64,000 nt of DNA from Dysgonomonas hofstadii (GTDB lineage: Bacteria; Bacteroidota; Bacteroidia; Bacteroidales; Dysgonomonadaceae). Under the pieces are notes generated by a model. That model worked only from the letters and a program-made list of their open reading frames with translations, searched no databases and was not told the DNA's origin. Each line of letters begins with the position of its first letter. The first letter of the stretch is position 1. This document shows, one piece after another, positions 22,841-59,846 of the stretch. The stretch spans positions 1 through 64,000 of the forward strand of contig NZ_JACIEP010000017.1 in the NCBI RefSeq assembly GCF_014196915.1. The letters run 5' to 3'. Both the position numbers and the translations under genes were made by a program.

Positions 22841-22862
22841 AAATTATGTTTAAAAACATATC

Positions 22863-37183: not shown

Positions 37184-37245
37184 TTTTTATTAATGAATGA
37201 CTACATTATGCTGATGGACGATGTTTGTAAAAAACAGGATAGTAT

Positions 37246-37315
37246 AAAAAAGAAAAGGTTGTCATCCCGACAACCAATCTTCATTGTTAACCTTAAATCT
37301 AATACCATGAAAAAC
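37246..37315 (-). ncRNA. Small RNA gene, copy 1 of 3
   Basis: A TATCTTTG promoter box (37322-37329, minus strand) is followed by about 70 nt of conserved sequence ending in an intrinsic terminator (GGTTGTC, 5-nt loop, GACAACC, then CTTTTCTTTTTT). The same unit, promoter included, recurs at 39042 and 59663, which argues for a functional small RNA. This copy differs from the others by one base in the loop. A short frame (ATGGTATTAGATTTAAGG...) lies inside. The layout fits the description of the Rfam Bacteroidales-1 RNA, but I cannot confirm the match. Confidence 0.75.
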
Positions 37316-37418
37316 ACAGTACAAAGATAGTATATTTTTATGTTATAAAACATGTTTCGTCGTTTTTACGCATTTAATTAACATGATTTAACTTCACGTT
37401 CTTTAAATTTACACTAAA

Positions 37419-37426
37419 TATTTTTG
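37419..37426 (+). promoter_or_regulatory. Possible -7 box of the GT39 gene
   Basis: TATTTTTG lies 7 bp before the ATG at 37434. If used, the message would be almost leaderless. No TTG at the right distance, so this is tentative. Confidence 0.3.
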
Positions 37427-37433
37427 GTTACTT

Positions 37434-38978
37434 ATGGCAATAAACGAGATAGAACAAGAGAACCGGTATTTAAGTCTGCTTATACTTTTTGGGTTTATTA
37501 TACTCAAGATGATTATACAGTACCAGGTGATTGCTCCCGGATATGAATTACACAGGGACGAGTTTCTGCATCTCGACCAGGCACACCATCTTGCCTGGGG
37601 ATTTCTGTCTATCCCTCCTGTTACTTCCTGGACATCGTTACTGATTTATTGGCTGGGAAACAGTGTATTCTGGGTTAAGTTTTTCCCGGCCTTGTATGGT
37701 GCCCTGACAATAGTGCTGGTATGGAAAATATCAGAAGTGCTGAAAGGAAAGCTTTTTGCCTGCATATTGGGCGCTACGGCATGCCTCTTATCCTCTTATC
37801 TGCGTATAAATACTTTGTATCAGCCTAATTCATTGGATATCCTTTGCTGGACATTCTTATTTTACTGCCTCATACAATATATATCTTCGGAGAGGAATAA
37901 ATGGATATATTGGTTTGCAGTAGGATTTGCAATTGGCTTTCTCAACAAGTATAATATTGCATTCCTTGTTATTGCTTTAATACCTGCACTGCTATTGACA
38001 AAATACCGTAATATATTCACGAAAAAAGCAACATTTTCAGCCGCTCTTCTTGCTCTCATAATCATTCTACCAAATCTGATATGGCAAATCAATAATGGTT
38101 TACCGGTAATTAAACACATGCAGGAACTAACTGATTTACAATTGGTAAATATAGAGCGTTCGGCATTTTTAAAGGAACAACTCCTGTTTTTTGCTCCATC
38201 CTTTTTTATACTTATCATTGCATTTGTGGGACTTATCTCTTACAAGCCTTTCAAAGATTACAGATTTGTTCTTTACACTTATATATTTACTATCTTCTTT
38301 TTTCTCATCTTCCACGGAAAACCATATTATGCATTAGGGCTTTATCCGGTACTTATTTCATTCGGAGCTGTTTATACCGCCTATCTTACAGAGCTGAAAC
38401 GTACCCGGTTATTGCGGCCTGTTATATTCCTGGTAATTCTCGGAATAAGTATCTTTTATATACCTGCAATCTGCCCTGTATATTCGCCTGAGAGGATACA
38501 GAACGACCCGGAAATATTGGAAATGTACCGAAAAACCGGACAATTACACTGGGAAGACGGAAAGGAACATCATATTCCACAAGATTATGCCGATATGGTA
38601 GGATGGAAAGAATTAACGGATATTACACTTTCAGCCTGGAATAGTTTCAATGAAAAGCAACGGGAAAAAACGCTGATATTATGCAACGAATACGGACATG
38701 CCGGTGCTATAAATTATTACAGCAACCGACTACTAGATGCCGCATCTATAAGTGCAGATTACAGAGACTGGTTCCCGGGAAAAGAAAAGATAATAGACAA
38801 TATTATAATGGTAATAGGAAATATTCCTGACAATGCACATCTATACTTTGATGATATTTACAAATTCGGCGATATCAAAAACCCGTTATCACGGGAGTAT
38901 GGTACTTCTGTGTTTATATTAAAAAATGCTCATGAACCGATGAACGGACAATCGCTCAAAGAGCTTTTATTAAATTAA
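37434..38978 (+). CDS. GT39/ArnT-like membrane glycosyltransferase
   Basis: The 514-residue protein has about ten membrane helices over residues 12-360, followed by a C-terminal periplasmic domain of about 150 residues. The first extracytoplasmic loop has the acidic Asp-Glu pair of the PMT/ArnT family (YELHRDEFLHLDQAHHLAWG). These enzymes move a sugar from a polyprenyl-phosphate donor to protein, lipid A or glycan acceptors. The acceptor is unknown. The gene is alone between two copies of the small RNA repeat and may be an accessory insertion. Confidence 0.88.
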   Translation: MAINEIEQENRYLSLLILFGFIILKMIIQYQVIAPGYELHRDEFLHLDQAHHLAWGFLSIPPVTSWTSLLIYWLGNSVFWVKFFPALYGALTIVLVWKISEVLKGKLFACILGATACLLSSYLRINTLYQPNSLDILCWTFLFYCLIQYISSERNKWIYWFAVGFAIGFLNKYNIAFLVIALIPALLLTKYRNIFTKKATFSAALLALIIILPNLIWQINNGLPVIKHMQELTDLQLVNIERSAFLKEQLLFFAPSFFILIIAFVGLISYKPFKDYRFVLYTYIFTIFFFLIFHGKPYYALGLYPVLISFGAVYTAYLTELKRTRLLRPVIFLVILGISIFYIPAICPVYSPERIQNDPEILEMYRKTGQLHWEDGKEHHIPQDYADMVGWKELTDITLSAWNSFNEKQREKTLILCNEYGHAGAINYYSNRLLDAASISADYRDWFPGKEKIIDNIIMVIGNIPDNAHLYFDDIYKFGDIKNPLSREYGTSVFILKNAHEPMNGQSLKELLLN

Positions 38979-39041
38979 TGGTGGTGAGTCTTAGTCTCTG
39001 ATTGTTTTGTTTTTGGTTTAATTAGAGAAGGTAATCTATAT

Positions 39042-39111
39042 AAAAAAGAAAAGGTTGTCATCACGACAACCAATCTTCATTGTTAACCTTAAATCTAATA
39101 CCATGAAAAAC
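39042..39111 (-). ncRNA. Small RNA gene, copy 2 of 3
   Basis: Same unit as at 37246: TATCTTTG box at 39118-39125 (minus strand), conserved body, then terminator hairpin at 39053-39071 with a U-rich tail. It lies between the 3' ends of the GT39 and rmuC genes. The inner frame beginning ATGAAGATTGGTTG closes with a stop after 14 codons. Confidence 0.75.
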
Positions 39112-39188
39112 ACAGTACAAAGATAGTATATTTTTATGTTATAAAACATATTTCGTCGTTTTTGCTCCATTTTACAACATTATTTAAC

Positions 39189-40448
39189 TTAAATATCACT
39201 TTCAGGAAGCTCCTTTTGGGCTTTAATGCCCAGTTCTTTCAGCATTTCGGCCTGACGGATAAGATTTCCATTTCCTTCCTTTAGTTGAGAGAAAGCTTTA
39301 TCATAAGCTTTTTGAGAACGTTCTATATTCTTACCTACATCTTGCAGGGTTTCTACAAAACCTGCGAACTTATCGTATAATGCAGCCCCCCGCTTAGCGA
39401 TTTCTATAGCGTTACGGCTCTGATATTCCCTTTTCCACAAATCAGCCACGACCTTCAGCGATGCAATGAGGTTGGTCGGACTGATCAACAGAATCCGTTT
39501 TCGGTACGCATAGTCCCATAAGGAAGAATCGAGTTGCATAGCAAGTATATAGGCCGGTTCGGTAGGGATGAACATCATCACAAAATCAAGAGAATCCACA
39601 TAATCCTGGTAAGATTTCCTGCTAAGTTCGTCAATATGCTGCTTTACAGATGCAATATGTTCTTTTTCCGCTATAAGCTTTATTTCATCTGTTTCAGCTT
39701 CTACATATTTTACATAAGCGTTTAATGATACTTTCGAATCGATAATAATCTTGCGCCCACCGGGATATGCGACAACAATATCAGGCTGCATATAATTTTG
39801 CTGGTCATTTCTAACCCTGTTACCATTTTCATCGGTTATATATTCCTGAGAAAAATATTCTTCACCTTTTTTCAATCCCGATTTTTCTAATATAGACTCA
39901 AGGATCATCTCACCCCAGTTTCCCTGCACCTTATTGTTCCCTTTTAACGCCTTAGTAAGATTATTGGCATCCTCACTGATCTGGTTATTCAGGGCAACAA
40001 GGTCTTTGATTCTTTCCTCGAGTGAGAACCGCTGCTTAGACTCCTTGTCGTAGGTTTCCTCCACTTTGGTCTTAAATTCTACCAGTTTCTCATTCAAAGG
40101 CTTCAATATAGCTTCTATATTAGCCTTATTCATATCGGTGAAGCGATGCGATTTCTCTTCCAGAATCTGGTTTGCAAGTATTTGAAAATCCTTATTCAAC
40201 TGACTGCGGGTATTGATAAGTTCCTCTTGCTGATTACGCAATTGCTCTTCCTTCGATTGCAATAACACTTTCAACTCCGACAGTTGGCTAATGTTATCTA
40301 TCTTATCCTGTTGTAAAACAGATTTTTCTTCCGAAAGCCGGCTAATTCCATCTTTCAATTCCTGTTCGCGCTGCTTATTCCCTCTTTGCATGAAAAGGAT
40401 GAAAACAACCGCCAGAATAAGAATTACGGCAGCATAAACTAATTCCAT
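39189..40448 (-). CDS. rmuC: DNA recombination protein RmuC
   Basis: With the start at 40448 (MELVYAAVILILAVVFILFM) the protein has 419 residues and opens with its membrane anchor, as RmuC proteins do. An ATG at 40553 would add 35 residues and bury the divergent gene's promoter in coding sequence, so it is less likely. A long coiled coil (about 20-145) precedes the RmuC nuclease-like domain (about 155-400: NNKVQGNWGEMILESILEKS, GGRKIIIDSKVSLNAYVKYV, DFVMMFIPTEPAYI). It is linked to suppressing rearrangements at inverted repeats. Confidence 0.93.
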   Translation of the reverse strand: MELVYAAVILILAVVFILFMQRGNKQREQELKDGISRLSEEKSVLQQDKIDNISQLSELKVLLQSKEEQLRNQQEELINTRSQLNKDFQILANQILEEKSHRFTDMNKANIEAILKPLNEKLVEFKTKVEETYDKESKQRFSLEERIKDLVALNNQISEDANNLTKALKGNNKVQGNWGEMILESILEKSGLKKGEEYFSQEYITDENGNRVRNDQQNYMQPDIVVAYPGGRKIIIDSKVSLNAYVKYVEAETDEIKLIAEKEHIASVKQHIDELSRKSYQDYVDSLDFVMMFIPTEPAYILAMQLDSSLWDYAYRKRILLISPTNLIASLKVVADLWKREYQSRNAIEIAKRGAALYDKFAGFVETLQDVGKNIERSQKAYDKAFSQLKEGNGNLIRQAEMLKELGIKAQKELPESDI

Positions 40449-40518
40449 ATCTGATTTGTTTTTAAGAAGTGGAAAGTTATTTAAAATATCAGGTTTAACA
40501 AAATTTGCCTGTAAAAAC

Positions 40519-40549
40519 TTGTGAACATTCTCCTGTGAAGATATATTTG
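40519..40549 (+). promoter_or_regulatory. Promoter of the small HExxH protein gene
   Basis: TTG (40519-40521), a 20-bp spacer and TATATTTG (40542-40549) match the Bacteroidota consensus exactly. The ATG at 40563 follows closely, giving a leader of about 7 nt. Confidence 0.65.
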
Positions 40550-40562
40550 CCATATATTCACA

Positions 40563-40907
40563 ATGAAAATATTATATAGTAAATATATTCCACCTAAAGG
40601 TTTCGGAGCGATAAACCTGTTCGGTCTGGTTATTGTACGTAAAGATTATGGCAGGCTTACGGACGCAGAAGAGAACCATGAGCGTATACATACAAGGCAA
40701 ATGCTGGAAATGCTTATCATTCCTTTCTATATTGCGTATAGCATGGAATGGTTCATCAGACTGATACAATACAGGAACGGGCTGAAAGCCTATTATAACA
40801 TTTCCTTCGAAAGGGAGGCTTATGACCGGATGTACGACTCCGGCTATCTGAAAAGGCGGAAATTATTCTCCTTTATATATTATTATAAATCAAAGGAGAA
40901 TCAGTAG
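40563..40907 (+). CDS. Small membrane-associated protein with HExxH motif
   Basis: This 114-residue protein belongs to no family I can name. It carries HERIH (residues 39-43), which fits the HExxH zinc site, then a hydrophobic helix (LEMLIIPFYIAYSMEWFIRL, about 48-67). An acidic SFEREAYDRM (81-90) could supply a third ligand, as in gluzincin peptidases of the M48/M56 kind. It is far smaller than known peptidases of those groups. A basic C-terminus follows (KRRK). It has its own strong promoter and is divergent from rmuC. Peptidase activity is only a possibility. Confidence 0.7.
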   Translation: MKILYSKYIPPKGFGAINLFGLVIVRKDYGRLTDAEENHERIHTRQMLEMLIIPFYIAYSMEWFIRLIQYRNGLKAYYNISFEREAYDRMYDSGYLKRRKLFSFIYYYKSKENQ

Positions 40908-40932
40908 TGGAACTGCATTTTATTTCAGAGAC

Positions 40933-41285
40933 TTTATCTATAGGATAAACAATGAGCAAATGTGATAATGAAGAGGTGATCTTTGAGAAATAGTGAAAAA
41001 TCTATCAGGTTTGCCTCGCCTTCGCTTCGGCGATTGCTAATTGGCTCCGCTTTGCTCTGCCGAACGCTGTTTGTCAGTTTTTTAATAAAAAAGCTAATAG
41101 CTAACAGCAAAAGCGTGTCAGGTTTTGGTTGAAAAAGATACAAAAGTGTAACTTTTGTAACTTTTTTGATACACAAAGTAAAAAAGAACTGGAATTTTTT
41201 GTTGATTACCATCATTGGCACATTGGCATATTTACTAATCAGCACATTGAACGGAGCGTAGCGAAGTGTCAGGTTTGTCAGGTTT
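40933..41285. repeat. Composite intergenic repeat, copy B
   Basis: This block fills most of the 427-bp gap before the Msr gene and matches copy A (36814-37183) in order: the 'tttatcta...gataaacaatgag' hairpin, the 'gcctcgcc...cggcgat' segment, the 'caaaagtgtaacttttgtaa' hairpin and the 80-bp 'attggcacattggcat' core (41202-41281). The order of the second and third parts is swapped relative to copy A. No coding capacity is seen. Confidence 0.7.
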
Positions 41286-41334
41286 TAACAATCTCAACTA
41301 TTGATTCGCATGGATTATAAAAAAGGATTAGATT

Positions 41335-42273
41335 ATGAAAAAGTTAATATACTTACTTTGCATCATGTTGATAAGTGTATCATGTGCTCAAAGTCAAACC
41401 TCAAATAAAACAAATAAGGAGAATATGGAATATAATAAACTAACACCCGAAGAAGAAAGGGTAATTATACACAAAGCGACAGAAGCTCCATACACTGGAG
41501 AATATTTGAATAATAAACACAGTGGGACGTATGTTTGCAGAAGATGTAACGCACCATTATATAAATCGTCGGACAAGTTCGATTCTCATTGCGGATGGCC
41601 TTCTTTCGACGACGAAATAAAAGGGGCTGTAAAACGCGTCCCTGATGCTGATGGAATGAGAACAGAAATAATCTGTGCAAACTGCGGAGCACATTTAGGA
41701 CATGTATTTCTGAACGAAGGATTCACTGCAAAAAATACACGCCATTGCGTTAATTCGATTTCATTAAAATTTATACCCGAAGAAAATAAAATGATAAAGA
41801 AAGCTTATTTTGCCTCAGGTTGCTTCTGGGGAACAGAATACTATTTTATGAAAGCCGCCGGAGTAAAACATACGGCAGTAGGTTTTATGGGAGGTCATGT
41901 GGATAACCCTAGTTATGAACAGGTCTGCCAGAAGAACACAGGGCATCTGGAAACTACCGAAGTAGAATATGACACTTCAAAAACTACTTATGAAGATCTT
42001 GTTAAACTGTTTTTCGAAACACATGATTTCACACAGACAAACGGACAAGGTCCTGACATCGGCCCTCAATATCTGTCATGCATCTTCTATTCGGACGAAT
42101 CTGAAAAAGAAACGGCAGAAAAATATATCGGAATATTAGAGGCAAAAGGATATAAGGTAGCTACTATGCTGAAACCCTTATCCACATTCTGGAAAGCAGA
42201 GGATTATCACCAGCAGTATTACGAACATAAAGGCACAAAGCCCTATTGCCATGTGTATAAAAAGATATTCTAA
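41335..42273 (+). CDS. msrAB: Exported bifunctional methionine sulfoxide reductase MsrB-MsrA
   Basis: The 312-residue lipoprotein (YLLCIMLISVSC, cysteine 17) has MsrB first (about 35-150) and MsrA second (about 153-312). MsrB has its zinc cysteines 68, 71, 114 and 117 (CRRC, CANC) and catalytic Cys138 in NTRHCVNSI. MsrA has its catalytic Cys163 in SGCFWGTEYYF. Together they repair both R- and S-methionine sulfoxide. The lipoprotein signal puts the enzyme outside the cytoplasm, guarding envelope proteins. How electrons reach it is not shown by the neighbours. Confidence 0.95.
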   Translation: MKKLIYLLCIMLISVSCAQSQTSNKTNKENMEYNKLTPEEERVIIHKATEAPYTGEYLNNKHSGTYVCRRCNAPLYKSSDKFDSHCGWPSFDDEIKGAVKRVPDADGMRTEIICANCGAHLGHVFLNEGFTAKNTRHCVNSISLKFIPEENKMIKKAYFASGCFWGTEYYFMKAAGVKHTAVGFMGGHVDNPSYEQVCQKNTGHLETTEVEYDTSKTTYEDLVKLFFETHDFTQTNGQGPDIGPQYLSCIFYSDESEKETAEKYIGILEAKGYKVATMLKPLSTFWKAEDYHQQYYEHKGTKPYCHVYKKIF

Positions 42274-42361
42274 ACACAAAGCATCTGTTTGTATTTTAAA
42301 ACATTAAGAAAAATGCAAATAAATTATTAATTTTATATTACCATATTTAAGGTATTCGCAC

Positions 42362-42369
42362 TATTTTTG
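42362..42369 (+). promoter_or_regulatory. -7 box of the DUF5606 gene
   Basis: TATTTTTG with a TTA about 21 bp upstream, 43 bp before the ATG at 42412. Confidence 0.5.
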
Positions 42370-42411
42370 TTGCTTGAAAAATTGAAACCAGTAATATAAA
42401 ACCTAATAATT

Positions 42412-42843
42412 ATGCTTAAGACAATCTTATCTGTTTCAGGGAAACCGGGACTTTACAAGTTAATTTCCAGCGGAAAGAATATGGTAATTGTGGAGTCGCT
42501 CATTGATAAAAGAAAGATGCCTATACATGCACGTGATAAAGTTGTGTCTCTTGGCGACATTTCTATTTATACCGAAACAGACGATGTTCCTTTAAAGAAT
42601 ATTTTTTCATCTATTAAAGAAAAGGAAGCCGGGAATAAAGCTTCGGTAAATACAAGTGCAAAGCCAGAAGAATTGAAAAAATATTTTCTTGAGATACTGC
42701 CGGACTTCGATAAAGACCGTGTATACCCTACAGATATCAAAAAAATGATCGGCTGGTATAATATCCTTATCGACGCCGAAATAGATTTTGAAAAGGAAGA
42801 GGTTGAGGAAAGTGAAGAAGAAAAAACAGAAGAGGATAAGTAA
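42412..42843 (+). CDS. DUF5606-family protein
   Basis: The 143-residue cytosolic protein begins MLKTILSVSGKPGLYKLIS and IVESLIDKRKMPIHARDKVV, the DUF5606 pattern. An N-terminal SH3-like beta region (about 1-65) and a C-terminal helical part with YPTDIKKMIGWYNIL are followed by a highly acidic tail (EEVEESEEEKTEEDK). The family is confined to Bacteroidota and has no assigned role. It is monocistronic, with its own promoter and terminator. Confidence 0.88.
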   Translation: MLKTILSVSGKPGLYKLISSGKNMVIVESLIDKRKMPIHARDKVVSLGDISIYTETDDVPLKNIFSSIKEKEAGNKASVNTSAKPEELKKYFLEILPDFDKDRVYPTDIKKMIGWYNILIDAEIDFEKEEVEESEEEKTEEDK

Positions 42844-42861
42844 TAAACAAAAATACACAAA

Positions 42862-42895
42862 AGCCCTCTAAATATAATACTTAGAGGGCTTTTTT
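42862..42895 (+). terminator. Intrinsic terminator after DUF5606 gene
   Basis: A perfect AGCCCTCTAA / TTAGAGGGCT stem with a 9-nt loop is followed by TTTTTCT. It separates this gene from the convergent esterase gene. Confidence 0.9.
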
Positions 42896-42912
42896 CTATC
42901 TAACGTTAATAT

Positions 42913-43983
42913 CTATTCTAATCCTATATCTTTTATCTTAGGAAACAACAACTCTGCATACCTCATAAATCCCAGGTCTGTAAAGTGAATACCATCGACC
43001 GTGGCCTCTCCGTCATCTCCCAGCATATTCTGGGATGAAAGCAGGTGGATATTCTTCTCTCCACGGGCTTTTAAAGAATCGAAGAATACATGCAATGCTT
43101 TATTCTTATCATTCACTTCTTTTTCGATGCGGGTATCGAATAAAGTATGTGTGAATACCGGATCTTCCACAAAGAGTATTGGTGTGCCGGGGTGCCTGTT
43201 CCGAATGATTGAATAGAACTTATCAGCTTTCTCTTCTATCTCCTTCACTGATGCATTAGGCACAAAGTCAAGGATAAAAAGCGAAGCATCTACACCTGCA
43301 ACGACCTCTGCAATCTCATAATCTAGTCTCGCGTTTCCGCTAAAGCCCAGGTTTATAAACTCTCGATTGAGCCAGCGAGACAGAATATTGGTATGCGCCA
43401 TCCCAGGACGGGTTGCACAACCTCCCTGCAAAATACTGGTTCCATAACAGACCACAGGTTTCTCTCTTATGGGAAGATTGACCTGAGGTTGAGATATAGT
43501 AGCCGCAGAATCTATACCTATCTCCAAAGATGTAACACCATCGTATAAAGAAAGGTATAACATATATTCCCGGGCAACAGGCTCCATATTGCTAATAATC
43601 GTAGCCTCGTTGTTCTTCCCACTAGGGCGTGCGCTATTCACAAAGCGCCATTTCCCATCAACTAAGGTATAAAGGTCAAGTCCTTTGATTCCTGTCGGGG
43701 TCATATGGTTCATTACCCTGTCATAGAGGACATTCCATTTAGTGGCAATAGTACCGGAATTAGAACGGAATCTAACAGCCAGTCCGGCAGAGCATTTTCC
43801 TAATTCCCATACCGGCTTACGGGTTATGTTCTCTAATGAATCGGGTAAGCGTTCATAAAGAGTTGCGGTATGATTGGTAGCTTTCCCTAACAAGGGAAAA
43901 CCAGATGCTTCATAATATACAACTTGCCCCCATATTATAATTGATAGTAAGCTAAAAGATAGTAATAATGCTAATCTTTTCAT
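42913..43983 (-). CDS. SGNH/GDSL-family esterase with GxDLY N-terminal domain
   Basis: The 356-residue protein has a signal peptide (LALLLSFSLLSIIIWGQ). A beta-sandwich with the GxDLY motif (IKGLDLYTLVDGKW) fills about 20-160. The SGNH hydrolase domain (about 175-350) has the nucleophile Ser in CYGTSILQGG, Gly in NLGFSGNAR, Asn in DFVPNAS and the Asp-x-x-His pair in TVDGIHFTDLG. It probably removes acyl groups from carbohydrates in the periplasm. It is the last gene of the Gfo/Idh-DUF1080 operon, so deacylation of a plant or microbial glycoside is plausible. Confidence 0.9.
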   Translation of the reverse strand: MKRLALLLSFSLLSIIIWGQVVYYEASGFPLLGKATNHTATLYERLPDSLENITRKPVWELGKCSAGLAVRFRSNSGTIATKWNVLYDRVMNHMTPTGIKGLDLYTLVDGKWRFVNSARPSGKNNEATIISNMEPVAREYMLYLSLYDGVTSLEIGIDSAATISQPQVNLPIREKPVVCYGTSILQGGCATRPGMAHTNILSRWLNREFINLGFSGNARLDYEIAEVVAGVDASLFILDFVPNASVKEIEEKADKFYSIIRNRHPGTPILFVEDPVFTHTLFDTRIEKEVNDKNKALHVFFDSLKARGEKNIHLLSSQNMLGDDGEATVDGIHFTDLGFMRYAELLFPKIKDIGLE

Positions 43984-44072
43984 AATCTTATATTTTAAGA
44001 AGATAGAAAGAGATCGTTTATACAGCCGTCTCTTTCTATCTCACACATTTACGAGTTCACTAAAAGGGTTTC

Positions 44073-47519: not shown

Positions 47520-47586
47520 AATATAAATTCGTTTCTTGCTTTATCCTTTGTTTTTATTCTTGTCTTAATACGCTGTATTCGTTTCC

Positions 47587-51916: not shown

Positions 51917-52650
51917 TCTCCTGATCTTTTCGCTTCTCTGGCCAAAGCATGAAATACTTCGTCCATTGATTCGGCATTAAACTGTTTCTTCATTTCTGAC
52001 GGGCTGTTCAGTGCTCTTATCTGTCCGTCGACCATAATTGAAATCCTGTTACAATACTCGGCTTCATCCATATAGTGTGTAGTCACAAAAGAAGTGATTC
52101 CCTGATCGGCCGCCTTGTAAATCATTTCCCAGAATGTGCGCCGTGCCATAGGGTCAACTCCACCTGTAGGCTCGTCCAGAAAGACTATTTTAGGAGAATG
52201 AAATGTTGATACGGCAAAAGAAACCTTTTGCTTGATACCCAAAGGAAGGGATTCGACAAGGGATTTTCTTTCTTCGTGCAATCCCAGTTCGGAGACTACT
52301 TCTTCTGTCTTGTTTTTAATCTCTTTCCGGCTCATGCCATATATTCCACCGAATAATTCGAGATTCTCCAAGGTTGTCAGATCGGAATAAAGTGAAAATT
52401 TCTGACTCATATAACCTATATTCTCCTTTATTTTATCTGCCTGTTTATAGATATCAAAACCAGCCACTTTCCCTTCTCCCGAGGTCGGGTTTAGTAACCC
52501 GCACAGCATACGCATAGCCGTAGTCTTTCCGGCTCCGTTTGCTCCGAGGAATCCGAATATTTCACCTTGTTCGACAGCGAATGTGATATGATCGACAGCG
52601 GTGAAATTACCGAACCTTTTAGTGAGGTCTTTTACTTCAATTACATTCAT
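51913..52650 (-). CDS. ABC transporter ATP-binding protein, second of the pair
   Basis: The 245-residue ATPase has Walker A GANGAGKTT, Q-loop near MSQKFSLYSDLT, Walker B KIVFLDEPTGGVDP and switch His in VTTHYMDEAEYC. The signature loop reads LPLGIKQK in place of LSGGMKQ, a clear departure that may make this half the degenerate ATP site of an asymmetric dimer. The gene overlaps the first permease and follows the other ATPase after an 81-bp gap that contains a hairpin. Confidence 0.93.
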   Translation of the reverse strand: MNVIEVKDLTKRFGNFTAVDHITFAVEQGEIFGFLGANGAGKTTAMRMLCGLLNPTSGEGKVAGFDIYKQADKIKENIGYMSQKFSLYSDLTTLENLELFGGIYGMSRKEIKNKTEEVVSELGLHEERKSLVESLPLGIKQKVSFAVSTFHSPKIVFLDEPTGGVDPMARRTFWEMIYKAADQGITSFVTTHYMDEAEYCNRISIMVDGQIRALNSPSEMKKQFNAESMDEVFHALAREAKRSGE

Positions 52651-52678
52651 TTTTTTGAGTTCTAAAGTTTTAAGTGTA

Positions 52679-52720
52679 CTAGTTTACTAGTTAAAACTGA
52701 TTGATTTTCTAGTAAACTAG
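52679..52720. repeat. 12-bp inverted repeat between the two ATPase genes
   Basis: CTAGTTTACTAG and CTAGTAAACTAG face each other across an 18-nt loop, followed by more copies of the CTAG/actagta unit up to 52737. There is no U-run, so it is not a standard terminator. It is the longest intercistronic gap of this operon. Confidence 0.65.
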
Positions 52721-52731
52721 CAAGCTAGGAA

Positions 52732-53625
52732 CTAGTATACTATATTCATCAATTGTATAAAACAGTCTTCAATGTCTGGAGTTGTCCTTTTGACTTCCAC
52801 ATCCGGATAATCTATCCTCATATCTTTATCCTTAAATACCATATGCAGATATTCTCCCGAGATATAAACTGATCTGATATTATCCTGATCTTTCAGCTTT
52901 TTCAATAGATGATAGTTATTACCGGCTTTTGCACTATATAATTCATAGGGGTAGCTATCTATGATTTGCTGTGGTGTATTCACTGATAATATTTTCCCTG
53001 ACTGGATAAGCGCTATACGGTCACACATAGCGGCTTCATCCATATAGGGAGTAGATACCATAATGGTTATCCCCTGTTGCTTCAACTGTTTCAGCATACC
53101 CCAGAATTCTTTACGGGATACAGGATCAACACCGGTAGTCGGTTCATCCAGAAACAGCACTTCGGGTTTATGTATCAGTGAGCAGCAAAGTGCGAGTTTT
53201 TGCTTCATTCCGCCTGACAATTGCCCGGCTCTCCTTTTTTTGAACGGCTCTATTTGTACATATATATCTTTAATCAGGTCATAATTCGTCTCGATTGTTG
53301 TACCGAAAACATCCGCGAAAAACTTCAGGTTTTCTTCGACAGTTAAATCCTGATAAAGGGAAAATCGTCCCGGCATGTAACCAATCGAATTTCTTATTTT
53401 CCTGAATTCGCCCACAACATCCAAACCTGACACGGTAGCAGAACCCTTATCTGCCAGTAGCAGGGTAGTCAGTATTCTGAACAAGGAGGTTTTTCCCGCT
53501 CCATCGGGACCAATCAGTCCGAAGAGTTCCCCATCCTCTATTTGCAGGTTTATATCTGTCAGGGCGATAACCGGATCTTTGGCGCCGTAGCTTTTGGATA
53601 TATTATTTATGGAAATAGTTTTCAT
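52732..53625 (-). CDS. ABC transporter ATP-binding protein, first of the pair
   Basis: The start at 53625 (MKTISINNISKSYGAKD) begins at the first beta strand. An ATG at 53676 would add repeat-derived residues and is rejected. The 297-residue ATPase has Walker A GPDGAGKTS, signature QLSGGMKQKLALC, Walker B VLFLDEPTTGVDP and VSTPYMDEAAMC, where Pro replaces the usual switch His. A C-terminal accessory region of about 75 residues follows. In E. coli YbhF the two ATPases are fused; here they are separate. Confidence 0.93.
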   Translation of the reverse strand: MKTISINNISKSYGAKDPVIALTDINLQIEDGELFGLIGPDGAGKTSLFRILTTLLLADKGSATVSGLDVVGEFRKIRNSIGYMPGRFSLYQDLTVEENLKFFADVFGTTIETNYDLIKDIYVQIEPFKKRRAGQLSGGMKQKLALCCSLIHKPEVLFLDEPTTGVDPVSRKEFWGMLKQLKQQGITIMVSTPYMDEAAMCDRIALIQSGKILSVNTPQQIIDSYPYELYSAKAGNNYHLLKKLKDQDNIRSVYISGEYLHMVFKDKDMRIDYPDVEVKRTTPDIEDCFIQLMNIVY

Positions 53626-53656
53626 ATTTAAAGTAGTTACAAGTTTTGTCGCTTTG

Positions 53657-53697
53657 CACCATTGGCACATCGGCATATTGGCTCATTAGCATATTAT
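53657..53697. repeat. Partial 'attggcacat' repeat
   Basis: The stretch 'ccattggcacatcggcatattggctcattagcatatt' matches the core of the intergenic repeats at 37102 and 41202. It fills the short gap between the HlyD and ATPase genes. Confidence 0.55.
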
Positions 53698-54596
53698 TTA
53701 AAATCCACGTCGCCATACATCCCTATCTTTATCATCCCGTCAGTATTTTCGACAGCAATCTTCACTGCATAAACCAGATTACGACGCTCGTCTTTGGTCT
53801 GAATGGTTTTAGGGGTAAATTCCGCTTTGTCGGAAACCCAAGAAACAGTTCCTTTGTAAGATTTCTGCTCTCCATCTGTTGTATTGATATATACAGTAGC
53901 TCCCTGGCCTATTTTTACATCCGGCAACTGGTCGGAAATAATATATGCCCTAAGGAACAAATGCTTCGTATCGGCAATCCTGTACAATGGTTTACCCGGA
54001 GAGGTCATTTCCTTCACTTCCACATATTTGTTCAATACCGTGCCCTCTATCGGGTTTATAATACGGCTTTTTTCCAACTGATCTTCTATTTGTGCTACCT
54101 GTATTTCGTAAACACCGCTTTCCTCATCCAGACTGTTTACAGAAGTAGACAGTGTATTGAGTTGCGCTCCCAGGCTACTTTTCAGTACTGCCAGTTGGGA
54201 ATTCACATCGTCCAGTTGCTTCTGAGTGGCAGCGCCATCGCGGAACATGCTTTCTATCCGTTTTTTATCCAATTCTGCTTTTGCGATCTGGTCTTTTGTT
54301 GCCGCTATTTGTAAGGAAATATCCGGACGCTTTACATTTACAGCTTTCGTTGTGGCCTGTAATTGCAATTTTTTCAGGTATAATTGGGTGGTATCAATAT
54401 ATCCCAGATATTGGTCTTTGTTCAGATAATCTCCCTCGGTTACATTGAATTCTTCTATTTTTCCCGTGGCTTCGGCCGAAACAAGAATCTCTGTCGCTTC
54501 GAACGTACCCGATGCATCATGATCGAATCCGTTGCGGTTACACGAAAACAAGATAAAAGCTGTTGCTGCTAGTATTATTAATCGTTTCATAATCAA
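53694..54596 (-). CDS. HlyD/YbhG-type periplasmic adaptor lipoprotein
   Basis: The 300-residue membrane fusion protein has a lipoprotein signal (LIILAATAFILFSC), a first half-lipoyl motif (ILVSAEATGKIEEFNVTEGD) and a long coiled-coil hairpin (about 70-165, QIAKAELDKKRIESMFRDGA). The second lipoyl half (IINPIEGTVLNKYVEVKEMT) and a beta-barrel domain follow. It links the inner-membrane ABC permeases to TolC. It overlaps the TolC gene stop by 4 bp. Confidence 0.93.
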   Translation of the reverse strand: MIMKRLIILAATAFILFSCNRNGFDHDASGTFEATEILVSAEATGKIEEFNVTEGDYLNKDQYLGYIDTTQLYLKKLQLQATTKAVNVKRPDISLQIAATKDQIAKAELDKKRIESMFRDGAATQKQLDDVNSQLAVLKSSLGAQLNTLSTSVNSLDEESGVYEIQVAQIEDQLEKSRIINPIEGTVLNKYVEVKEMTSPGKPLYRIADTKHLFLRAYIISDQLPDVKIGQGATVYINTTDGEQKSYKGTVSWVSDKAEFTPKTIQTKDERRNLVYAVKIAVENTDGMIKIGMYGDVDFK

Positions 54597-55864
54597 TTTC
54601 CTTGTATATGTTTGTAATTATAGATATTCATTAGATATTGTATTTCGTGCAAAGCTTTGGATTGCCGTGCCATTGATTCGGCATTGATGTCGCGTATCAG
54701 CTCGTTCATCTGATATACACCATTCTTATACTTGCTTTCACTAGCTATTTTCACCCGGTTCCGCAGACGGATTATATCATCGTCTTTCTCTAACAGCTTT
54801 TTTGCTTTCTTTACTTCCTCCTGTTCTTTTGTCAACTGTACATTTGTATTGAAAAGGAATGTTTCGCGCTGAACTTCTATGTTGCTTATATTATTCTGAA
54901 TCAGCTTCTTTTCATTTTTCTTTGTATAAAGGCTTCCGAAATTCCAGCTTAGTTTAACTCCCCCGATTGCAAATAATTTGAATTTATCTTCCAGCATATT
55001 CAATCCCGGTCGGCCATATCCACCTTGCGCAAACAGATTTATGCGGGGCATGTTTTTAGCATTAATGGAACTTTCCTGTTTATTCTGCATATTTATCTGC
55101 GAATTATACAAACTCAGTTCGGGACGGTTGATATCTCCGCTTAAAATGAAATCATCCTGAGGATTCTGCAATATTGTATTTTCATCCAGCGGTCTATGTA
55201 TAAATAATGACAGCATTTGTAATGTTGCTTTTCTGAGACTTTTCTGTTCAATACGCTGTTGTTCCAGTCCTAAAAGTTCTACATCTATCAGATCGACGTC
55301 GGACTGCATAGCCACCCCGTTATTGAACATAGAAGTGACAGTTTTCTTGTTCGATTTCAGATTCTGCTCTGTCAGGTCTATGATTCCAAGCTGTTTGTCG
55401 ATAGATAGAATACCGAAATACAGTTGGTTAATCTGGTCTTTTACCGTATACAGGTTAACTTCTATGCGTTGATTTTCCACCTCGCTGTTTGCTCTGGTTA
55501 TTTTCTGTTGCGAAGAAGTCGCCCCTCCATCCCAGATCAGTTGGGAAACCTCAACCACGGCTTTGTACTGATCTTTATCCAGTGATGGAATTTCGATCGG
55601 TATGGAAAGCGCAGACAAATCGATTGGTAGTTTAGTCACATCAGACTGATAGGTAGCTTGCGCATTGAGGCCAAACTGAGGCAGATAATTCTTCGAGAGG
55701 TTCTGTAACGTGTATTTTTCAGCCTGTTCTATCAATCCATATTGCTTTATAAGCGGGTAATTATCAACAGCCAGTTGCTTGCACTCATCCAATGTAAGAA
55801 CTGTTTGAGCACTTACTGATGCAGTGAAAAATATTATCCAGAAAATAAAAACTACTTTTTTCAT
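54593..55864 (-). CDS. TolC-family outer-membrane efflux protein
   Basis: The start at 55864 (MKKVVFIFWIIFFTASVSAQ) gives a proper signal peptide and 423 residues. A start at 55885 would add seven residues and overlap the TetR stop. Two OEP repeats of long helices and strands are visible (LTLDECKQLAVDNYPLIKQY, PELSLYNSQINMQNKQESS), of the usual length for Bacteroidota TolC proteins. It forms the outer-membrane exit duct for the efflux system. Confidence 0.93.
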   Translation of the reverse strand: MKKVVFIFWIIFFTASVSAQTVLTLDECKQLAVDNYPLIKQYGLIEQAEKYTLQNLSKNYLPQFGLNAQATYQSDVTKLPIDLSALSIPIEIPSLDKDQYKAVVEVSQLIWDGGATSSQQKITRANSEVENQRIEVNLYTVKDQINQLYFGILSIDKQLGIIDLTEQNLKSNKKTVTSMFNNGVAMQSDVDLIDVELLGLEQQRIEQKSLRKATLQMLSLFIHRPLDENTILQNPQDDFILSGDINRPELSLYNSQINMQNKQESSINAKNMPRINLFAQGGYGRPGLNMLEDKFKLFAIGGVKLSWNFGSLYTKKNEKKLIQNNISNIEVQRETFLFNTNVQLTKEQEEVKKAKKLLEKDDDIIRLRNRVKIASESKYKNGVYQMNELIRDINAESMARQSKALHEIQYLMNIYNYKHIQGN

Positions 55865-55877
55865 AATTGTGCTTGAT

Positions 55878-56492
55878 TTATTCATCTAACTGTAGCATTC
55901 CCTTTATCCACATCGGAATAAGCTTACGCCTTTCTTCAAGGAAGCCTGATATATTGTCAATATTCGTATCATAGAGGTATACTATCAGCGGACGTGCAAT
56001 AACCGGCATCACCGATAATGATATTGTGTTCAGCATAATATGTAATGGAGACATTTTAATTCCTTTTTTGTTGAGCTGCTCGTTTATCTGGTGGAAAAGG
56101 CAACTTTCAACCAGCATGTCTTTAGCAATGCCTCCTTCTTTTATCATTCTTCCTGAATCTACCTGTAATTCATTAAGGACAAACAAAGCCAGATTAGGAT
56201 TTCCTTTTATAACATCAATATAACCATCGACTATCAGGTCTATTTTATAGGACAGCGAAGTTGTGGGATCACTTATTATTTGACGCAGGAAAGAAAACAT
56301 TTCGGAAATGCTCTCTATCATTATAATATGGAAAAGATTTTCCTTACTACGAAAATAATAATGGAGTAGAGCCGAATTTATTCCTGCAGCTTCTGCTATT
56401 TCCCGGGTGCGGACCGCATCAAACCCCTTTTCCTGAAAAAGCCTTTTGGCTGTTTCTTTTATACGGTTTTCGGTATTGTCATCCTTATGCAT
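55878..56492 (-). CDS. TetR-family transcriptional regulator
   Basis: The 204-residue protein has the TetR helix-turn-helix at about 8-55 (RIKETAKRLFQEKGFDAVRT, REIAEAAGINSALLHYYFRS). A helical ligand-binding domain fills the rest. It is the first gene of the efflux operon, as the TetR regulator YbiH is for E. coli ybhGFSR, and probably represses its own operon until an exported compound binds. An AT-rich imperfect palindrome overlaps the promoter upstream. Confidence 0.93.
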   Translation of the reverse strand: MHKDDNTENRIKETAKRLFQEKGFDAVRTREIAEAAGINSALLHYYFRSKENLFHIIMIESISEMFSFLRQIISDPTTSLSYKIDLIVDGYIDVIKGNPNLALFVLNELQVDSGRMIKEGGIAKDMLVESCLFHQINEQLNKKGIKMSPLHIMLNTISLSVMPVIARPLIVYLYDTNIDNISGFLEERRKLIPMWIKGMLQLDE

Positions 56493-56517
56493 AATTTTAT
56501 CATTTATTGATTATGCA

Positions 56518-56525
56518 CAAAGTTA
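56518..56525 (-). promoter_or_regulatory. -7 box of the TetR/efflux operon
   Basis: On the minus strand this reads TAACTTTG. Just upstream, 56527-56553 has ATCAA and TTGAT facing each other over 17 bp of AT-rich sequence, a possible self-regulation operator for the TetR protein. Confidence 0.5.
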
Positions 56526-56611
56526 AATCAATCAATTAATTTAATTATTTGATTAAAACATATTTTAACTACAATATATTAAAACCATAAAAACGGAATA
56601 CTCTTCTCTTA

Positions 56612-56703
56612 TTGTCATGTTGAGGAACGAAACATCTATTTTAAGAGATTCTTCACTTCGTTCAGAAACAACGTTCTACGGAACGAAGTGCAGTCAATGA
56701 CAA
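56612..56703. repeat. Imperfect foldback repeat ('gaacgaa...cttcgttc' type)
   Basis: TTGTCAT and ATGACAA close a 92-bp element that holds several 'gaacgaa' / 'ttcgttc' blocks and 'agagattcttcacttcgtt'. It lies in the gap between the efflux operon's promoter region and the helicase gene end. Elements of this shape occur in many bacterial genomes. No coding capacity. Confidence 0.55.
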
Positions 56704-56781
56704 AGGGTGTATTTGCTTCAGAGACAGCTATAATAACAAAAGAGGCTTTAATCCTTTATATAGAATACTTCAAAAAATATT

Positions 56782-58191
56782 TTATTCAAATTCATCCGGT
56801 AGATTTACCAGATAAAGTTTATTGCTGGCACGTGTAATTGCAGTATAAAGCCAGCGATAGAAGTTTATGCCCAAATGCTCTTCTGAAATATATCCCAGAT
56901 CAAGAAATACATTCCTCCATTCTCCACCCTGTGCTTTGTGGCATGTAACAGCATATGCAAATTTAACTTGTAAAGCGTTGTAGAAAGGATCGACTTTCAG
57001 TTTTTTCATTTTTCCGGCTCTGGTCGATATATCGGCATAATCCTCCAATACGTTCAGAAACAATTCTTCTGATCGTTCTTTAGTCAGTCCTGCCGCATCG
57101 GAATGGAGGGTATCCATCAATATTTTCACCTCCAGTTCGATATCGTAGTCAAGACTCCGAATCAATACTTCACAAAACCGGAATCCGTAAAGATCTTGTT
57201 CTCGCCGTACCCGCAATACTTCTACAATCTCCCCATTAGCCAGAAAATCAACATTCTCTACATTCTCCGTCCAATAATAGTTATTCTTTGTAATCATCAG
57301 CATATCACCGGGAGATAATTCTTCCTCCCGGTATAGAATACGATTCCGAACTCCCTGATTATAGATATTGCATCTTTTATTGGAACGTGAGATAATCATC
57401 GTATTCTCAAGGCCTTCCTTATCATAAGAAGATGAGATTTCGTCAATCAGATCTTCGCCTGAAATTTTTACAATATCCGCAAAGTTTTTTAGTTTCAGCT
57501 TGGGATAAGCTTCAGTCTTTCCTTTTGTAAGGGCATTACGAATAGCCGTCGCATTTCGCAATATTCCCGAACCTTCGGCTTGCCGTACAATTTGCGACAA
57601 CATGGCGCTATGCACTTCAAGTCCGTATCCGGCTAACTCCGAAACTTGCAGGGCGGGGCTGTCTTCCTCTCCTACCGGTGGTAGCTGAGCTGTATCTCCG
57701 ATCAAGAGTATGCGGCAGTTTTCGCCAGAGTATACAAAATGAATCAGATCGTCCAATAAACGTCCTGTGCCGAAATAGGAATCGAGTCCGTTATTGCTGA
57801 TCATCGACGCTTCATCTACAATGAACAATGTGTCTTTATGCAGATTATCCATTAATCCGAAATTGCCCAACTCTCCCGAATACTTTTGTTGACGGTATAT
57901 TTTCTTATGAATAGTAAAAGCCGGATGGTTTGAATAAGAAGAGAAAACCTTTGCCGCACGGCCTGTAGGTGCCAACAGTACTGTTTTCTGTTTAAAATCG
58001 GTCATCGTTTTCACCAAAGCCCCCAATAGAGAAGACTTACCCGTTCCGGCAAATCCCCTAAGGAGAAAGATTGATTCTTCCTTTTGCAAGAAAAGAAAAT
58101 CCACTATTTTATCCAGAGCGATTTCCTGCTCCTGAGTAGGTTCGAAAGGGAAATTTTCTTTTATTTTTTCTTTAAAGAACTTGCTGATCAT
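56782..58191 (-). CDS. RecD-like ATP-dependent DNA helicase (AAA_30/UvrD_C_2)
   Basis: The 469-residue SF1B helicase has Walker A LRGFAGTGKSSLL, motif Ia VLLAPTGRAAKVF, Walker B LFIVDEASMIS, motif III LLIGDTAQLPPVGE and a C-terminal UvrD_C_2 end with AYAVTCHKAQGGEW and YTAITRASNKLYLV. It is shorter than RecD2 and lacks the N-terminal helix-hairpin-helix region, so it is closer to the Dda/Pif1-like group. Likely role: unwinding DNA at stalled forks or during repair. It is divergent from DUF3822-rsmD. Confidence 0.92.
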   Translation of the reverse strand: MISKFFKEKIKENFPFEPTQEQEIALDKIVDFLFLQKEESIFLLRGFAGTGKSSLLGALVKTMTDFKQKTVLLAPTGRAAKVFSSYSNHPAFTIHKKIYRQQKYSGELGNFGLMDNLHKDTLFIVDEASMISNNGLDSYFGTGRLLDDLIHFVYSGENCRILLIGDTAQLPPVGEEDSPALQVSELAGYGLEVHSAMLSQIVRQAEGSGILRNATAIRNALTKGKTEAYPKLKLKNFADIVKISGEDLIDEISSSYDKEGLENTMIISRSNKRCNIYNQGVRNRILYREEELSPGDMLMITKNNYYWTENVENVDFLANGEIVEVLRVRREQDLYGFRFCEVLIRSLDYDIELEVKILMDTLHSDAAGLTKERSEELFLNVLEDYADISTRAGKMKKLKVDPFYNALQVKFAYAVTCHKAQGGEWRNVFLDLGYISEEHLGINFYRWLYTAITRASNKLYLVNLPDEFE

Positions 58192-58214
58192 TATTACCGG
58201 ATTGAATTGAAGAT

Positions 58215-58222
58215 CAAAAGTA
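58215..58222 (-). promoter_or_regulatory. -7 box of the RecD-like helicase gene
   Basis: On the minus strand this reads TACTTTTG, 24 bp before the start at 58191. No TTG at the expected -33. Confidence 0.45.
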
Positions 58223-58243
58223 GCAGATAAAAATATCTTTTTC

Positions 58244-58251
58244 TAACTTTG
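58244..58251 (+). promoter_or_regulatory. -7 box of the DUF3822-rsmD operon
   Basis: TAACTTTG lies 20 bp before the ATG at 58271. No TTG at the expected -33. Confidence 0.5.
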
Positions 58252-58270
58252 CATCTACAAAATACAGATT

Positions 58271-59080
58271 ATGTTCTTACCAGACAATATAGATCTCGGG
58301 CAACCGGAAAAGTATATACTCTCTATACGGATAGCCGCTGATTGCTTCATGTTTTCCATTGTTGAACCGGGAAACGAGAAAGTATATTGCCTGAGGGAAA
58401 CAACTTTTTCGCCGAACAATGATCTGCTGAACAACATAAAACGGATTATATTCGACCTGAATTTCCTCACCCAGGAGTTTAAACAAACGAATGTTATTTT
58501 CGTCTCGAAAGAATATGACCTTATCCCTGCGCCATATTTTGAAATAAAGAATCAAAAGACGCTTCATGATTTTACCAATACCAATAAGGCAGGGCATCTA
58601 CTTTCAGGCCTACTGGATGGGCAGGATGTTATCGTTTCATATAATGTGGAACAGGACATTTACGAGTTCCTTTCGCGCAACCTGTGGAGTCCTCACTTTT
58701 TCCACCATACACATCTGATGATAAACTGGCTGGAAGATAAAGACAGGCTGAAAGGACTGTATCCGAAAATGTATACCTATTTTCATGATGGATTGATGGA
58801 TATTTTCTGCTTTTCGGGCAGAAAACTGATCCATAGCCTGACATACAAGAACGAACCTGCACAAAACCAGCTTTATTTCATCCTGAAACTATGGGAATGT
58901 TCGGGCTTCGATCAGATGAGCGACAACCTGTTCATTATCGGGAACGCAGAAAAACTGCTGACAAAACATCTTGAAGAATATATCAAAAATATAGAATATA
59001 TAAATATTCCCAGTGAAGCTTATCTGTGGAGCGATGACGCGCAGAAAGCCCCGATAGACCTGTTGACTTTGGCATTATGA
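58271..59080 (+). CDS. DUF3822-family protein
   Basis: The 269-residue protein is of the DUF3822 family, which has an actin/ASKHA-like look: an N-terminal KYILSIRIAADCFMFSIVEP strand pair and the segment PKMYTYFHDGLMDIFCFSGR. It is nearly always encoded directly before rsmD in Bacteroidota, and here overlaps it by 4 bp (ATGA). The role is unknown. Coupling suggests a link with ribosome maturation. Confidence 0.85.
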   Translation: MFLPDNIDLGQPEKYILSIRIAADCFMFSIVEPGNEKVYCLRETTFSPNNDLLNNIKRIIFDLNFLTQEFKQTNVIFVSKEYDLIPAPYFEIKNQKTLHDFTNTNKAGHLLSGLLDGQDVIVSYNVEQDIYEFLSRNLWSPHFFHHTHLMINWLEDKDRLKGLYPKMYTYFHDGLMDIFCFSGRKLIHSLTYKNEPAQNQLYFILKLWECSGFDQMSDNLFIIGNAEKLLTKHLEEYIKNIEYINIPSEAYLWSDDAQKAPIDLLTLAL

Positions 59081-59619
59081 GAATTGTAAGCGGAAAATAT
59101 AAAGGACGGCGGTTCGATCCGCCAAAAAGTTTTAAGGCACGGCCGACAACCGATATTGCGAAGGAAAGCCTGTTCAATATATTGAATAACATGATCGATT
59201 GGGAAGATACTACCGCCCTCGACCTTTTTGGCGGTACAGGAAGTATCAGCTTCGAGCTTATTTCGAGAGGCTGTCCCAGAGTAGTTTGTGTGGAAAAGAA
59301 TTTTAATCACACTTCATTCATAGAAAAAATCAAAAGCGACTTAAAAATAGGATCGGAAATGCAACTGGTAAAAACCGACGTATTCGTCTTTCTTGAACAT
59401 TATAAAGAACAATTCGACCTTATTTTCGCCGATCCGCCCTACGATCTGAAAAACTTTGAAGATGTCCCCAGACTTATATTTGAAAAGGGTTTATTGAGGC
59501 CTGATGGAATATTCATTCTCGAACACTCTAAGGAATACGATTTTTCAGAGTATCTGCTATTTAAAGAAAAACGTGTATATGGAAGTGTGAATTTCAGTCT
59601 GTTTACCCCTATTGAATAA
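59077..59619 (+). CDS. rsmD: 16S rRNA (guanine(966)-N2)-methyltransferase
   Basis: The 180-residue enzyme has the normal length for RsmD. It starts MRIVSGKYKGRRFDPPKSFK and has RPTTDIAKESLFNIL, SAM-binding DLFGGTGSISFELISRG, and catalytic FADPPYDL. It methylates G966 of 16S rRNA during 30S assembly. It is translationally coupled to DUF3822. Confidence 0.95.
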   Translation: MRIVSGKYKGRRFDPPKSFKARPTTDIAKESLFNILNNMIDWEDTTALDLFGGTGSISFELISRGCPRVVCVEKNFNHTSFIEKIKSDLKIGSEMQLVKTDVFVFLEHYKEQFDLIFADPPYDLKNFEDVPRLIFEKGLLRPDGIFILEHSKEYDFSEYLLFKEKRVYGSVNFSLFTPIE

Positions 59620-59662
59620 TCTGTTGTAGAAATTGTTTCAGGTTTCGTAATGAAACTTATAT

Positions 59663-59732
59663 AAAAAAGAAAAGGTTGTCATCACGACAACCAATCTTCA
59701 TTGTTAACCTTAAATCTAATACCATGAAAAAC
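59663..59732 (-). ncRNA. Small RNA gene, copy 3 of 3
   Basis: Same unit as at 37246 and 39042: TATCTTTG box at 59739-59746 (minus strand), conserved body and terminator hairpin at 59674-59692 with a U-rich tail. It lies between the convergent rsmD and DUF5686 genes, over 20 kb from the other copies. The inner 14-codon frame also closes with a stop here. Confidence 0.75.
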
Positions 59733-59846
59733 ACAGTACAAAGATAGTATATTTTTATGTTATAAAACATGTTTTGCTGTTTTTCTTTTATTTTATAACA
59801 TTGTTTAACTTTTAAACATATGTTTTACAGCATATTTTAGATTCTA

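Follow-up and report, generated by a model that had tools for sequence, protein, structure and literature searches.

Three near-identical units of about 70 nucleotides are dispersed on the minus strand of a 64,000-nucleotide stretch of Dysgonomonas hofstadii DNA (contig NZ_JACIEP010000017.1, positions 1 to 64,000; hereafter the window). The question that they raise is which RNA they encode and what controls its synthesis. Covariance-model matching makes it almost certain that they are genes of the small RNA (sRNA) FopS. Their promoters have a feature that points to a specific regulator: where the -33 element would be expected, each has an operator of the type published for the Crp-like regulator Cur (BT4338), and the same operator recurs at a fixed place in many other FopS promoters.

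Identity of the three units

All three units match the Rfam family RF04319 (BTncRNA_FopS) over its full length (model positions 1-71, 81.2-81.4 bits, gathering score 56), and nothing else in the window reaches the gathering level in Rfam. Chance is excluded because the E-values are about 2e-10 for the whole window; no tRNA was found in the window. By this match the RNA is a further member of the known FopS family. The units are 73 nucleotides long. Copy 1 (37245..37317, minus strand, 81.2 bits), with the RNA 5' end near 37317, differs by one loop base from each of the other two, which are identical to one another: copy 2 (39041..39113, minus strand, 81.4 bits) adjoins rmuC, and copy 3 (59662..59734, minus strand, 81.4 bits) adjoins rsmD. 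The ends lie within one or two bases of those in an initial annotation of this DNA, which had described three near-identical minus-strand units, each with the promoter box TATCTTTG, a body of about 70 nucleotides and an intrinsic terminator, and the sequence bears out that description. The terminator hairpin, GGTTGTC paired with GACAACC and followed by a T-rich tail, occupies 37257..37275 in copy 1, 39053..39071 in copy 2 and 59674..59692 in copy 3, all on the minus strand. Hairpin and T-rich tail are kept in 190 of 193 distinct FopS RNAs, and among the 40 of 42 distinct forms listed the stem sequences vary with pairing kept. The 5' region of the window copies is partly and weakly paired in the minimum-energy fold.

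The initial annotation had assigned the units to the Bacteroidales-1 RNA class, with no known function. The Rfam check that it proposed led us to reject that class, which is absent both from the gathering-level matches in the window and from a permissive scan of copy 1 (E up to 10). That scan returned FopS first and then its relative GibS, at 41 bits against a cut-off of 115. A function for FopS has in fact been published: in Bacteroides thetaiotaomicron it pairs close to the start codon of SusC homologs and so represses their translation, the protein RbpB counters it, and bile salts induce it (PMC11697453; this and the other papers cited by PMC number were drawn on in part). The search of the whole genome that had also been proposed (5.04 Mb, 44 contigs, 99.7% complete) found seven FopS copies above the cut-off.

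A Cur-type operator in FopS promoters

The sigma-ABfr -7 box TATCTTTG is retained in the window copies, at 37322..37329 in copy 1, 39118..39125 in copy 2 and 59739..59746 in copy 3 (minus strand), and the -33 element is replaced by a Cur-type operator. Conservation upstream of the units, already remarked on in the initial annotation, is real: the 46 bp beside the RNA 5' end vary at four positions among the three copies, and bases farther out vary more. A palindrome, AAACATGTTT, had been reported there in copies 1 and 3. It is present, but the symmetrical element is wider, the palindrome being part of a 16-bp inverted repeat, (C/T)ATGTTTTATAACATA, that all three promoters possess. The inverted repeat emerged from an alignment of FopS promoters as TTATGTT-TTAT-AACATAA and was recognised afterwards as the published consensus TATGTTnTAnAACATA (wwwTATGTTnTAnAACATAwww), which was proposed for BT4338 (PMC3878776) and tested at fusA2 (PMC6989115). 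The operator of copy 1, CATGTTTTATAACATA (37339..37354, minus strand), has its centre some 30 bp upstream of the RNA 5' end and departs from the consensus at one of 14 fixed positions; that of copy 2, TATGTTTTATAACATA (39135..39150, minus strand), matches exactly; and that of copy 3 is again CATGTTTTATAACATA, one position off (59756..59771, minus strand). A second Cur-type site, distal to the first, is present in copy 3 about 92 bp upstream: TATGCTGTAAAACATA, also one position off (59819..59834, minus strand).

The operator is a property of the FopS family at large. We compared 218 distinct FopS units from several families, each with 140 bp of upstream sequence free of N; the sample is non-random, many stretches having been picked by a 41-nucleotide pattern and some species occurring twice. 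With a Cur-type site defined as having at most two of the 14 fixed positions mismatched, 123 of the 218 units have one centred 27-31 bp upstream of the RNA and 132 have one anywhere in the 140 bp, where shuffling leads one to expect 1.2. The remaining centres fall at -60/-61 (8 units) and at -88 to -92 (13 units), with one each at -51 and -81. A TAnnTTTG box is found in 207 of the units. Elsewhere in the genome such boxes are almost never associated with the operator: only one of 458 TAnnTTTG boxes in 400 kb has a site at -25 to -33, and of the window's 66 boxes only those of the 3 FopS promoters have one. Four of the 21 distinct genome sites with at most one mismatch belong to the window FopS promoters. 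The TTG of the -33 element is found in 26 of 109 operator promoters versus 62 of 76 without operator.

Bacteroidaceae copies, taken from plasmid-type records, are heterogeneous. An exact site at -28 is present in one Bacteroides finegoldii copy, two-mismatch sites at -60 in two further B. finegoldii copies and one from Bacteroides ovatus, and three-mismatch sites at -60 in one copy each of B. finegoldii and Phocaeicola massiliensis; in a second P. massiliensis copy and in the copy of phage BX-TP2 no site with up to three mismatches was found. A further conserved element, GTTAAA-N4/5-GTTAA, precedes the -7 box by about 62 and 52 bp in the window copies and in loci L037-L155, with or without the operator, and resembles a second binding element.

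A putative Cur ortholog and other sites

The genome encodes three CRP-family genes above the Pfam cut-off, and only one of them, L304 (G000:C2:67481-68179), which has CRP-family domains, possesses a one-mismatch site (TATGTTGCAAAACATA) within 400 nucleotides upstream. We regard L304 as the putative Cur ortholog, an assignment made by domains and upstream site and not by comparison with the BT4338 sequence. Counterparts are present in 23 of 25 genus genomes, the source genome included, the others having 76-91% identity. Sixteen of the 23, again including our own, have a site with at most two mismatches within 300 nucleotides upstream (shuffle expectation 0.15); gene starts were chosen by rule, and some upstream stretches are shorter. 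These sites match the autoregulation that was predicted for BT4338 and its orthologs (PMC3878776). The L304 gene of D. hofstadii has a further TAnnTTTG box before the site.

Single sites at other genes fit as well. An exact site (G000:C13:132512-132527) lies between the TACCTTTG box and the gapA gene (L258), about 20 nucleotides after the predicted transcription start, a position that looks roadblock-like. The glucuronate isomerase gene has a one-mismatch site upstream. The fusA2 (EF-G2) gene has a two-mismatch site 89 bp before the start predicted from the TAATTTTG box; it was assigned by its best NCBIfam match, the Bacteroidota elongation factor G2 model, at 796 bits over 452 residues, below the full-length cut-off of 1000. 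In B. thetaiotaomicron, fusA2 is the top Cur target and is Cur-activated (PMC6989115).

Promoter classes and seed variants

The seven FopS copies of D. hofstadii fall into three promoter types. Five have the -7 box, namely the three window copies, with operator, and L005 and L007, which are plain sigma-ABfr promoters. The other two, L004 and L006, which lie on C6 (220552-220624) and C10, are without the -7 box and have AACTATTT-N11-12-CGTTAATATTA in common, which in our reading is like a promoter of the extracytoplasmic function (ECF) sigma factor type. Similar sequences, approximately AACTATTT-N11-13-CGTTAATATTAT, lie directly upstream of FopS units that lack a TAnnTTTG box, these two and those of congeners (L019, L408, L416, L421-L423, L429). 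The ECF-like class rests on this conservation among congeners because AACTATTT-N10-14-CGTTAATA has just three exact matches in the genome against one for the reversed control; two are the FopS promoters, and the third, inside a gene resembling a hybrid two-component system, is taken as chance.

The same classes are found across the genus. Among the 39 usable of 40 further genus regions, 11 have the operator, 16 are plain, 6 are ECF-like by pattern and 6 are other, one of these last being masked and five looking by eye like looser ECF-like forms. The seed variant follows the promoter class closely in this sample, CATGG being present in all 11 operator copies and CATAG in 15 of 16 plain, 5 of 6 ECF-like and 3 of 5 looser copies. 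A strict link between seed variant and promoter class was rejected, as other genera have CATAG in some operator copies and CATGG in some plain ones. The published account describes canonical sigma-ABfr promoters and little sub-diversification of paralogs (PMC11697453).

Seed and SusC targets

The window copies share the seed region TTTTTCATGGTATTAGATTTAAGGTTAA (copy 1, 37287..37314; copy 2, 39083..39110; copy 3, 59704..59731; minus strand), which is complementary to SusC start regions and lies in the 5' part of the RNA, where the FopS seed has been placed (PMC11697453). Its opposite strand resembles a generic SusC translation start, AACCTTAAATCTAATACCATGAAAAAC. The genome has 56 SusC matches and three RRM_1 proteins. 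For each SusC match the start was taken as an in-frame ATG with a signal-like N-terminus, and for control genes as the first ATG. Seed duplexes with the 56 SusC starts have a mean energy of -14.5 kcal/mol, compared with -11.0 kcal/mol for 271 control starts (Mann-Whitney p 1e-11), although SusC starts are slightly more AT-rich (20% GC versus 24-26% in controls). None of 300 dinucleotide-shuffled seeds, evaluated with the first 150 controls, matched the energy difference between SusC and control starts. The 126 controls with signal-like N-termini have a mean of -11.4 kcal/mol (p 1e-7 versus SusC), and the SusC regions themselves give means of -10.8 kcal/mol 150 nucleotides upstream of the start (51 of 56 usable) and -9.9 kcal/mol 95 nucleotides downstream.

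The preference for SusC is graded, because -14 kcal/mol is reached by 35 of the 56 SusC starts and also by 52 of the 271 controls. L194 and L195 rank as the best predicted targets, and the window's own SusC gene (6998-10351, L228) is a poor one at -8.8 kcal/mol. A genome scan for the anti-seed AAATCTAATACCATGAAAAA with at most three mismatches found 17 sites, seven of them the FopS copies and 10 elsewhere, compared with two for the reversed pattern; three of the 10 lie within 500 bp upstream of a SusC match.

A proposed circuit and its alternatives

We propose the following model. Each FopS gene would produce an RNA of about 70 nucleotides with a 5' seed and a terminator hairpin. With a seed antisense to the generic SusC start, FopS would cover the start codon in mRNAs of SusC-type importers and block their translation; RbpB or a similar RRM protein probably acts against it. 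Under carbon limitation the L304 product would bind the window operators and shut these copies off, so that SusC would be translated when the cell must forage; such a release of SusC translation would fit the role of Cur, if repression holds. The pairing of the seed with SusC starts and the conservation of the operator are computational observations, the translational repression and the antagonism by RbpB are carried over from B. thetaiotaomicron and would apply here by analogy, and from the operator sequences we infer that Cur binds FopS promoters. Taken as a whole, with FopS and with Cur repressing the window copies, the chain is tentative and falls somewhat short of an even chance.

Control of the window copies by Cur, of either sign, is rather likely on the evidence of their promoters. 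The sign itself is almost evenly balanced, with a slight lean to repression. A dimer at the -27 to -31 site covers the -33 region, and the spacing is looser than that of the far sites; a site centred over the -33 region is in a usual position for a repressor. The gapA site counts on the same side, as it lies after the predicted start. Cur binding has been associated with 140 repressed and 35 activated genes (PMC6989115). Several observations weigh against the model. The operator is absent from four of the seven D. hofstadii copies, and 76 of the 218 units have the -7 box without a Cur-type site. Genome-wide, sites with up to two mismatches are not enriched (96 versus 92 for the reversed pattern), so that Cur-type specificity rests on position in FopS promoters, and a reading of all such sites as a regulon was dropped. 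Against repression in particular, the sites at -60/-61, in copies with an intact -33 element, look like activator positions, and the loss of the -33 TTG from 83 of 109 operator promoters could mean activator dependence, since basal recognition may be poor there without a bound activator. At the L304 gene, in D. hofstadii and 14 congeners (L365-L370, L373-L379, L386), 38-39 bp separate the centre of the site from the downstream start that a TAnnTTTG box predicts, a position that is activator-like and one helical turn farther out than in FopS promoters. Finally, the published inducer of FopS is bile salts and no sugar (PMC11697453).

If Cur instead activated the window copies, the circuit would form an incoherent feed-forward loop: polysaccharide utilization loci and FopS would both be switched on by carbon limitation, and FopS would trim SusC. 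This is a serious possibility, though a minority one: the missing -33 TTG and the L304 position agree with it, as do the arrangement of FopS site centres in classes about 30 bp apart, the distance of the fusA2 site and the activation of both fusA2 (PMC6989115) and the sRNA MasB (PMC10994844) by Cur in B. thetaiotaomicron, whereas the covering of the -33 region with its looser spacing, the gapA site and the preponderance of repressed genes do not. It is improbable that the palindrome is the operator of another CRP/FNR-family or unrelated regulator, for example a bile-responsive one. The FopS paper leaves room for such a regulator (PMC11697453) and the genome has two further CRP-family genes above the Pfam cut-off, but it is the published Cur consensus that is matched, with sites upstream of L304 and its congeners, fusA2 (two mismatches), glucuronate isomerase (one), gapA (none) and a GH3 gene of the window (one). 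A housekeeping promoter in which the palindrome only sets promoter strength, without a regulator, would suit the conserved AT-rich upstream elements of FopS promoters with and without the site; the symmetry, the match to a regulator consensus, the discrete spacing classes and the near absence at the 458 control boxes make it decidedly unlikely. Least credible, to the point of being nearly negligible, is a mobile repeat, either like a miniature inverted-repeat transposable element (MITE) or phage-borne. Similar DNA does occur in 6 of 50,697 phage records and FopS copies do sit at the endpoints of rearrangements, but the conserved core consists of promoter, body and terminator, the flanking sequences are different, congeners retain the position between rmuC and rsmD, and the terminator stems vary with pairing kept.

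Relation to known systems

The window RNA resembles FopS of B. thetaiotaomicron in its full-length covariance match, seed, terminator, multiple copies and complementarity to SusC starts, and in the RRM proteins that the genome encodes. It differs in copy number (seven in D. hofstadii compared with 12-15 in the paper) and in the three promoter types of a single genome compared with the canonical sigma-ABfr promoter (PMC11697453). The portions of that paper drawn on here describe no counterpart of the Cur-type operator, and there Cur serves for a comparison of phenotype strength (PMC11697453). GibS (RF04182) has the R1 seed sequence in common with FopS (PMC11697453) and differs by a second seed and a PM2 promoter (PMC11697453, PMC7366714). 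MasB of B. thetaiotaomicron is a precedent for a Cur-controlled sRNA; it is a distinct sRNA with another target and is activated by Cur (PMC10994844). We found no paper joining Cur and FopS, in a text search that misses Cur followed by a reference mark and has supplementary tables outside its scope. As far as the literature searched goes, the Cur-type operator and the promoter classes are undescribed.

A parallel in design is offered by Escherichia coli, where a CRP-family factor shuts off Spot 42, an sRNA that silences the uptake of secondary carbon sources. FopS and Cur would work like Spot 42 and CRP if Cur represses; the likeness is one of design only, no relation is claimed, and Spot 42 has another chaperone and other targets than FopS. 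One may speculate that FopS is a post-transcriptional arm of carbon catabolite control in Bacteroidales, in which Cur represses the operator copies and frees SusC translation under carbon limitation, sister copies with nearly the same seed stand under plain sigma-ABfr or an ECF-type sigma factor, and CATGG or CATAG largely tracks the promoter class within Dysgonomonas; we consider this broad scheme doubtful. If true, one silencing RNA would integrate at least three inputs through its promoters, and a master transcription factor of gut glycan use would be joined in one circuit with an sRNA silencing the importers of glycans. In the FopS paper the regulator that sets FopS transcription is left open (PMC11697453). 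The operator, which 123 of 218 sampled promoters have in a fixed position, offers a concrete and testable answer together with the other promoter types on sister copies.

Genomic place and distribution

The initial annotation took the units for a dispersed sRNA family in which promoter and terminator belong to each unit, and not for a transposon, and this view agrees with the seven genome copies, the presence of FopS in all 25 Dysgonomonas genomes searched and the keeping of the rmuC-rsmD place. FopS lies between convergent rmuC and rsmD, with one to four copies per stretch, in 9 of 24 congener loci examined, which represent seven distinct places (L041/L457 and L145/L455 being the same places); many of the remaining loci lie elsewhere or are too short to be judged. 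A transposon or MITE is disfavoured, as the position is conserved and the flanks are different. FopS copies mark the endpoints of rearrangements (window 37245-59734; L446, L448, L449, L451, L455-L457). Several congeners have rsmD, FopS and rmuC side by side. In the window, in G019 and in G005 the place is split into an rmuC-FopS half and a FopS-rsmD half, with about 20, 88 and 45 kb between them, respectively; a FopS copy stands at either end, as though recombination took place at the FopS repeats.

FopS scored above the cut-off in 28 of 148 genomes of an order-level draw and at E <= 0.001 in 35 of 148. The exact 41-nucleotide pattern of the window form was found in at least 119 stretches, many of them titled Dysgonomonas, Proteiniphilum, Petrimonas or Parabacteroides. 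The paper gives Bacteroidaceae as the range (PMC11697453), which is widened here to Dysgonomonas and Parabacteroides.

Elsewhere in the window, a gene for a glycoside hydrolase of family GH3 (22952-25279) has its one-mismatch Cur-type site at 22845-22860, about 90 bp upstream. Next after the GH3 gene comes a gene that matches a TonB receptor below the cut-off, and on the other side lies a gene for an NrtR-family regulator.

The six phage records with FopS-like DNA are of two kinds. In five unannotated fecal phage records part of the FopS query was matched, and no FopS unit was found in the two of these examined by seed search. The sixth is Bacteroides phage BX-TP2, induced from Bacteroides xylanisolvens. 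It contains a FopS-like unit (PQ571285.1 44785-44863, L438) in which a -7 box, a seed and a terminator are all present; no genes are annotated in the surrounding stretch, and a DNA methyltransferase gene lies nearby.

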